From Microcaldota archaeon (lineage in GTDB: Archaea > Micrarchaeota > Micrarchaeia > Micrarchaeales > Micrarchaeaceae): a stretch of 38,022 bases of DNA. This document shows positions 17,247 to 37,867 of the stretch, in pieces; position 1 is the first letter of the stretch; each line of letters begins with the position of its first letter. The position numbers were made by a program, and so were the translations under genes. Under the pieces are notes generated by a model that made no database searches, was not told where the DNA came from, and saw only the letters and a program-made list of their open reading frames with translations. The stretch covers positions 1 through 38,022 of the forward strand of contig JAKAUR010000034.1 in assembly GCA_021827665.1 (NCBI GenBank), read 5' to 3'.

Positions 17247-17347
17247 CGCCGGGGGTGGGAATCGAACCCACGAAGGCCTTTCAGCCAAACAGCTTAGCAG
17301 GCTGCCGCCCTTTAGAGTGCTTGCGCATACCTCTAGGCGACCCCGGC
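17247..17347 (-). tRNA. tRNA-Ser(GCT) containing a 17-nt D-loop intron (intron 17312-17328)
   Basis: Acceptor GCCGGGG/CCCCGGC, anticodon loop CTGCTAA, long variable arm GGCT-GAAA-GGCC, T-arm GTGGG TTCGATT CCCAC. Removing ATGCGCAAGCACTCTAA restores D-arm GCCT-AGAGGTA-GGGC. Confidence 0.9.
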
Positions 17348-17386
17348 ATGCTATTCATTTACGTTTGCACTGTTTTTAAATCTTAG

Positions 17387-17650
17387 CGGCGGAAGCCGGC
17401 CTTGCCATGCAAGCAGCAGTTGCGTTGACCATACTTCAGCTCAGCCCCGTATCCCGGGAGCGTAGCCTGAATGTGCTTAAGGTTGCTCCTTCCGGCCTGG
17501 CCTGGTTCACGCACCAAGCTACCACCTGGGGCAAGGCATCAACGCTTCCATCTGGGCGCAAAAGCCGCTTGCATAACGCAACCGGCATTGGCCCGCCAGA
17601 AAGGGATTTGCGAACGGGAAACCCTTAGCTTCCCGGCCTATCCGCCAAGG
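17387..17650 (-). ncRNA. Signal recognition particle 7S RNA (boundaries approximate)
   Basis: Minus strand contains the SRP helix-8 motif 'GTGAACCAGGCCAGGCCGGAAGGAGCAACC'; ends pair (GGCGG...GGCCGG with CCGGC..CCGCC). Confidence 0.88.
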
Positions 17651-36523: not shown

Positions 36524-37324
36524 ATGGCATTGGCGCAGCTGAGCACTAAAAAGGAGGATACCAAGTACAAGCAGAAGCTGGAGTTCATAGATGCGCACTG
36601 CCATCCGGACTTTCTCAGCGATGAGGAGCTGGATATTGCAAACGGGCACGGGGTCACAGCGCTGGTGGTCAACGGCGTTGACACGAAGTCGAACATGTCA
36701 ATAATTGGAGAAAGATGGCGCTCAGGGGTTTTCGCGGCGTTGGGCATACATCCCGAAAACGCTCTGAAAATGGCAGATGAAGAGATTGATTATAACATAA
36801 GCCTGATAAGGGCAAATGCAAAGGGCATATCCGCAATCGGCGAAATAGGACTGGATTACAAATTTGCAAGCAGCGAAAAAGACAGGGAAAGGCAGAAAGA
36901 GACCTTTAAGAAGTTCGTAAACCTTGCGATAGAGCTTGACAAGCCTGCCAGTGTCCATTCCAGGGACGCGCTTGACGACGCTTTGGAGATCCTAGGCTCG
37001 TCAGGGATAAAGAAGGCCCATATACACTTTTTCGAGGGTGACGGGGCTCAGGCTGAAAGGGTTGCCAAAATGGGCTTCATGGTTTCTGTGCCGCCCATGC
37101 ACTCTGCAAAAAGAATGGCGGCAATTGAATCGATACCGATATCAAACATAATGGCAGAGACAGATTCGCCCACTGCTGGGATGCACGTTTACGACATTGA
37201 CAAGTCAATAATGCTGATAGCCAAAGCGAAGGGCATGGATTTTGAGAGCTGCGCCGTGGCGGTAGCGGACAATACGAAAAGGTTCTTTAATATTGGCGTG
37301 CACAATCTAATTCGACGGATTTAA
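36524..37324 (+). CDS. tatD: TatD-family metal-dependent hydrolase
   Basis: 'FIDAHCHPDFL', 'GISAIGEIGLDYK', 'KPASVHSRDALDDALEIL', 'IMAETDSP'. Confidence 0.93.
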   Translation: MALAQLSTKKEDTKYKQKLEFIDAHCHPDFLSDEELDIANGHGVTALVVNGVDTKSNMSIIGERWRSGVFAALGIHPENALKMADEEIDYNISLIRANAKGISAIGEIGLDYKFASSEKDRERQKETFKKFVNLAIELDKPASVHSRDALDDALEILGSSGIKKAHIHFFEGDGAQAERVAKMGFMVSVPPMHSAKRMAAIESIPISNIMAETDSPTAGMHVYDIDKSIMLIAKAKGMDFESCAVAVADNTKRFFNIGVHNLIRRI

Positions 37325-37431
37325 GGGCCCGTAGCTCAGCTTGGACAGAGCAGCAGCCTTCTAAGCTGATGGTCGCGGGTTCAAAATAAGTTTAGCGGTT
37401 CGCTAATGCTATGAAATTCCCGCCGGGCCCG
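37325..37431 (+). tRNA. tRNA-Arg(TCT) containing a 32-nt T-loop intron (intron 37386-37417)
   Basis: Acceptor GGGCCCG/CGGGCCC, D-arm GCTC/GAGC, anticodon loop CTTCTAA, T-stem GCGGG/CCCGC. Removing the 32 nt restores T-loop TTCAAAT. Confidence 0.9.
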
Positions 37432-37867
37432 AATCCGCGCTTTCTTTTTGGCCTCTTCCTCCTCTTTTGTCCTGCTTTCCCTGCTTCGCGTTAACGAACT
37501 CTATCGAGAGGTCCTCATCCGACGGCGTCTCCATCCATGCCTTTATGTACGAAGCTATGTTCCTGAGCGGCTTCGAATACCTGTCGGTCAGCTCGTATAT
37601 GGAATTTTCGTGCTTAAGCAGCCCCAACTGAACTGCATAATCAAGATACCTCTTTGCGGTGGCAATTGGTATGCCTTCAGGCACGTCTTTGAGCCTTAGG
37701 CCGGACTTTTTGGCCATGCTAAGGAGCGTGGCGAACCTGTATGCCTCTGTTTCGTTTTCGAAGAATATCCTTGCAATGTCTGCGACCTTTGGGCTTTTGA
37801 CCTTCTCCCTGAAGGGCGCATCCTCGAATTCCCAGTATTTTATCGCCATTTTTACCTCCGCATACAT
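37409..37867 (-). CDS. Hypothetical winged-helix-like protein
   Basis: 'YRFATLLSMAKKSGLRLKDVPEGIPIATAKRYLDYAVQLGLLKHENSIYELTDRYSKPL' reads as a winged HTH; an internal ATG at 37849 (MAIKYW) is a likely start. Confidence 0.7.
   Translation of the reverse strand: MYAEVKMAIKYWEFEDAPFREKVKSPKVADIARIFFENETEAYRFATLLSMAKKSGLRLKDVPEGIPIATAKRYLDYAVQLGLLKHENSIYELTDRYSKPLRNIASYIKAWMETPSDEDLSIEFVNAKQGKQDKRGGRGQKESADSGPAGIS

Follow-up and report, generated by a model that had tools for sequence, protein, structure and literature searches.

Archaeal tRNA genes can carry introns at non-canonical positions, of which 673 have been counted in 217 archaeal genomes (PMC8450103), and the site between tRNA positions 59 and 60 is among those listed by Yoshihisa in 2014 (PMC4090602), with an emphasis on Crenarchaeota and Nanoarchaeota rather than on the DPANN order considered here. 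The tRNA-Arg(TCT) gene described below shares with these BHB introns its position, its hBHBh' motif and an inferred endonuclease route, and its T-loop intron is a well-supported further example of this known archaeal type. What differs is that tRNA-Arg genes of a single DPANN order are commonly intron-bearing at one site. A preliminary description of the locus had called the position non-canonical, which is correct, but the novelty that this suggested was overstated, as 59/60 had already been listed.

Three other groups invite comparison. ARMAN-1 and ARMAN-2 (Micrarchaeum; PMC4033280, PMC6379350, PMC12397907) belong to the same lineage and are both listed with multiple-intron tRNAs (PMC4033280); a feature shared with the present genome is the epsilon2 three-unit EndA, which in ARMAN-2 has a broad specificity that takes in relaxed BHB motifs (PMC6379350). 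The Thermoproteales, where transposition of introns among tRNAs has been reviewed (PMC4090602, PMC4033280), resemble the present case in having introns at several positions and near-identical introns across isoacceptors, but belong to another phylum with another endonuclease type. Non-canonical tRNA introns also occur in the Asgard Atabeyarchaeia and Freyarchaeia, a different lineage in which 92-95% of tRNA genes contain introns (PMC11291895).

The window analyzed here is a stretch of 38,022 nucleotides, in which the tRNA-Arg(TCT) gene occupies positions 37325-37431 (+) and is interrupted between T-loop positions 59 and 60 (Table 1). Its 5′ part reads GGGCCCG TA GCTC AGCTTGGACA GAGC A GCAGC CTTCTAA GCTGA TGGTC GCGGG TTCAAA, and is followed by the insert ATAAGTTTAGCGGTTCGCTAATGCTATGAAAT (32 nt) and then by T CCCGC CGGGCCC G. 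All four stems (acceptor, D, anticodon, and T) are present, with TCT as the anticodon and a G-A mismatch at 27-43, and the 61 bases of the 5′ exon are 100% identical to the gene of a cultured relative. ARAGORN called no tRNA on the unspliced locus, and the Rfam tRNA model scored 33 bits over 37325-37383 only, with the T-arm broken. Once the insert was removed, and only then, a canonical tRNA emerged, with the T-loop TTCAAAT, a length of 75 nt, and an ARAGORN call of tRNA-Arg(tct). The preliminary description had read the locus in just this way, as a tRNA-Arg(TCT) with a 32-nt T-loop intron that uses the T-stem as its outer helix and whose excision (37386-37417) yields TTCAAAT and a 75-nt tRNA; its coordinates, anticodon, boundaries, and product were all confirmed.

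Table 1. Features of the tRNA-Arg(TCT) gene and its T-loop intron (window coordinates)
Feature	Position	Strand	Remarks
5′ exon, tRNA positions 1-59	37325..37385	+	acceptor GGGCCCG/CGGGCCC, D-arm, anticodon loop CTTCTAA
T-stem 5′ strand GCGGG, outer BHB helix	37375..37379	+	pairs with CCCGC 37419-37423
Central helix 5′ strand TTCA, T-loop positions 54-57	37380..37383	+	pairs with TGAA 37412-37415
5′ bulge AAA, 3 nt	37384..37386	+	predicted cut after 37385; AAN conserved in relatives
Intron, 32 nt, between tRNA positions 59 and 60	37386..37417	+	removal gives back T-loop and 75-nt tRNA
Intron hairpin including inner BHB helix	37387..37411	+	folding; inner helix covariation among archaeal relatives
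Central helix 3′ strand TGAA	37412..37415	+	TGAA, TGGA, TGGG or TGAG in relatives, each pairing TTCA
3′ bulge ATT, 3 nt	37416..37418	+	predicted cut after 37417; ANT in all relatives
3′ exon: T60, T-stem 3′ strand, acceptor 3′ strand, discriminator G	37418..37431	+	

The splice-site motif is readily recognized in the sequence. Two 3-nt bulges, AAA and ATT, lie on opposite strands with the 4-bp helix TTCA/TGAA between them, as had been proposed, and this core is flanked by the T-stem GCGGG/CCCGC on the outside and by a bulged helix, TA-A-GT-TTAGCG, on the inside. The hairpin TTAGCG-GTT-CGCTAA noted earlier is present, but it is longer than first drawn and contains bulges (TA-A-GT-TTAGCG / CGCTAA-T-GC-TA). 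When the isolated T-arm was folded with its interior otherwise free, forcing the central helix cost 0.9 kcal/mol relative to the minimum-energy fold, and a hand-drawn version of the BHB in the isolated T-arm lay 1.8 kcal/mol above it. The minimum-energy alternative keeps the T-stem and inner hairpin and leaves the central helix open. The BHB is close to optimal in energy, and the enzyme might capture this state.

The machinery for removing such an intron is encoded in the same genome, whose assembly comprises 852 kb in 40 contigs and is 87% complete. A host endonuclease and an RNA ligase are both represented, each by one gene. Residues 10-392 of the single 392-aa EndA align with residues 9-387 of the ARMAN-2 EndA 4fz2, nearly end to end (phmmer E 1.1e-167), and a single chain of ~390 aa with homology over all three units is, by that comparison, of the three-unit epsilon2 type. 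The RtcB ligase was recovered with an E of 5e-167. Enzymes of the epsilon2 type cut introns at various tRNA positions, and with EndA, RtcB, and the known pathway at hand, splicing of the tRNA-Arg(TCT) precursor would be expected.

Taken in this light, the locus is almost certainly a functional tRNA-Arg(TCT) gene whose 59/60 BHB intron would be cut by the epsilon2 endonuclease and whose exons would be joined by RtcB. The gene, its motif and conservation, the enzyme genes, and the lack of a further copy within the assemblies are read from sequence and comparison; cleavage and ligation we infer from the known pathway. According to this model, the precursor in this Micrarchaeum-related archaeon would be interrupted at the non-canonical 59/60 site by a 32-nt BHB intron, and the first four T-loop bases would pair with the TGAA near the 3′ end of the intron, so that each splice site falls within a 3-nt bulge. 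In each bulge the endonuclease would then cut behind the second of the three nucleotides, RtcB would join the exons to restore TTCAAAT, and the T-loop would presumably fold only after splicing.

Other tRNA-Arg genes of this genome are interrupted at the identical site. The Arg(CCT) gene has a 21-nt intron (TTCA-AAT...TGAA-AAT) and the Arg(TCG) gene a 34-nt intron (TTCA-AAA...TGGA-AAT), and both were likewise recovered by ARAGORN as tRNA-Arg only after intron removal. The three introns of this one genome (TCT, CCT, and TCG) therefore share one site and have unlike interior sequences. Separately, a tRNA-Leu(CAA) (L038:69-171, on contig C35) has 18 extra nt in its T-loop, with a relaxed BHB; because AAA stands on both flanks, this insert could be placed at either 56/57 or 59/60. 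A leucine-like tRNA on contig C7 (L045, 15130-15400) has a D-loop that seems to hold a further insert.

A covariance model built from the three tRNA-Arg genes was run on 60 genomes, from which 80 genes were read out, a set biased toward intron-bearing genes since relatives were found partly via a model built on the T-loop motif. Auto-read anticodons "AAG" or "AAT" (five relatives) were left unused, and the automatic reading misplaced the T-stem in L091 and L136 (contig-end or unusual cases) and possibly in L156. Arg(TCT) contains a T-loop intron in each of the other seven genomes of the genus. In three of the genomes (G002, G003, and G004), the introns are homologous with few substitutions, one of which changes TGAA to TGGA with pairing kept. 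The first of these is the closed genome (NZ_CP060530.1) of "Ca. Micrarchaeum sp. A_DKE", a strain in culture whose genome is complete (PMC8975820, the text of which makes no mention of tRNA or introns), and its homologous intron lies in the sole Arg(TCT) found (160723-160829). The sole Arg(TCT) seen in each of the single-contig genomes G002, G014, G015, and G031 (ARM-1, AP024486.1) likewise has an intron. Roughly 60 distinct homologous inserts were recovered from relatives. The central helix was fully paired in 56 of 56 distinct inserts in this register and in none in shifted registers.

The comparison among related Micrarchaeota that had been proposed at the outset turned up both intron-bearing and intron-free genes. 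Several other genomes of the order have uninterrupted Arg(TCT) or Arg(CCT) genes of 75 nt, and G004 has, on a contig of 601 bases, an additional copy that lacks the intron and may be contamination. In ARM-1, the Arg(TCT) and Arg(CCT) genes (L219 and L226) possess identical 13-nt T-loop introns, and the corresponding pair in G006 is near-identical. The identical introns of ARM-1 may indicate that an intron was copied from one isoacceptor to the other, and the overall pattern at 59/60 gives the impression of introns repeatedly copied and lost, as has been described for Thermoproteales. In the literature searched, with Fujishima 2011 outside its scope, no account was found of one-site recurrence in the arginine tRNAs of an order together with turnover of the intron sequence, its loss from some members, and isoacceptor-shared introns.

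Pattern scans extend this picture beyond the genus. The T-loop BHB pattern GGGTTCAAA-N7..37-TGRAANTCCC was matched in 176 of 303 genomes of the phylum and its reversed control in none, so the insert is not a product of chance. A longer version with GCGGG, run over a collection of 85,462 prokaryote species, returned at least 118 stretches, and among the matches listed, all record titles were archaeal except for one Bacteroidales contig. That match (L254) lies in an apparent coding sequence with no cloverleaf and, like a doubtful Nanoarchaeota match (L265), was not entered into the covariation test. The matches listed include Asgard genomes, and with low-confidence "?" anticodons set aside the commonest isoacceptors in this list are Arg TCT, TCG, and CCT and Ala GGC, and acceptor stems are paired at 7/7 positions in 113 of 117. 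The inner helix, which is absent from the search pattern, is paired at 2.50 of 3 positions in 102 distinct loops (among the matches listed) versus 1.31 when partners were shuffled, with a maximum of 1.64 in 5000 shuffles; since the loops are related and not independent, these shuffle counts are not probabilities. The pairs in use are TA, GC, CG, AT, TG, and GT, and such covariation supports what would be an RNA structure common to archaea. Together, the two paralogous tRNA-Arg genes, the ~60 homologous inserts, the presence/absence pattern, the epsilon2 endonuclease, and RtcB lend support to the original BHB-intron reading.

It could be argued that the locus is a disrupted, non-functional pseudogene hit by a random insertion, with another tRNA serving AGA codons, and standard gene finders do miss or truncate it. 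The preliminary description had named an intact tRNA-Arg(TCT) elsewhere as evidence against its own reading, and none was found in the assembly, which at 87% completeness does not strictly exclude a second copy, or in the four single-contig genomes. Moreover, the exon stems are intact, and the position and structure of the motif are conserved across an order even as the sequences are unlike. On these grounds the pseudogene reading was rejected as highly improbable. Still more remote is a self-splicing group I intron or another mobile element: group I introns do occur in archaea (PMC6125680), but their catalytic core needs at least about 200 nt, a size that the 32-nt insert falls far below, Rfam gave no match of this kind at the locus, and the strict BHB and the endonuclease gene point elsewhere. 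Insert size and structure exclude it.

A further suggestion adds to the functional-gene reading rather than replacing it, namely that selection maintains 59/60 as an intron hot spot throughout the Micrarchaeota lineage, in Arg and Ala tRNAs, because an intron there is useful. For example, an intron there could break the T-arm-to-3′-end attachment site of archaeal virus or plasmid integrases, or it could act as a maturation gate, whereby only the spliced tRNA forms the elbow and receives its T-loop modification. One site is indeed strongly favored in Arg (TCT, CCT, and TCG) and Ala (GGC) tRNAs across the order while the intron sequence turns over. Nevertheless, many relatives have the same gene without the intron (75-nt), so that it is dispensable, and neutral gain with copying among tRNAs also fits, as with the identical Arg TCT/CCT introns of ARM-1. 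Selection for usefulness is accordingly an unlikely, if conceivable, addition.

The consequences are both practical and evolutionary. Essential tRNAs of Micrarchaeota are missed or truncated by simple gene finders, and the paralogous tRNAs offer a natural series of intron gain, loss, copying, and length change at one exact site, which could be used to test how non-canonical tRNA introns spread and whether selection acts on them. With closed genomes of the cultured A_DKE and ARM-1 available, splicing is directly testable.

Several other features of the window deserve mention. The locus had been counted as the second such interruption in the window, and another interrupted tRNA does exist, but it is a tRNA-Ser(GCT) (17247-17347, -) whose 17-nt intron (17312-17328) sits in the D-loop rather than the T-loop. 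Its intron forms a full BHB (central AGAG/CTCT, inner TGC/GCA, and outer CCT/GGG), and ARAGORN misses the gene unspliced. Adjoining it is an archaeal SRP RNA gene (17386-17648, -; Rfam RF01857, 100 bits). On the strand opposite tRNA-Arg(TCT), a gene for a 152-aa protein (37409-37867, -) with no Pfam match and 91-94% identity in three close relatives runs into the 3′ end of the tRNA gene, and its stop codon lies inside the intron, which therefore also ends an opposite-strand protein gene. Finally, at 36524-37325, the stop codon (37322-37324) of a TatD-family DNase gene directly abuts the first base of tRNA-Arg(TCT), an arrangement also seen in close relatives and one that suggests read-through transcription from the protein gene.
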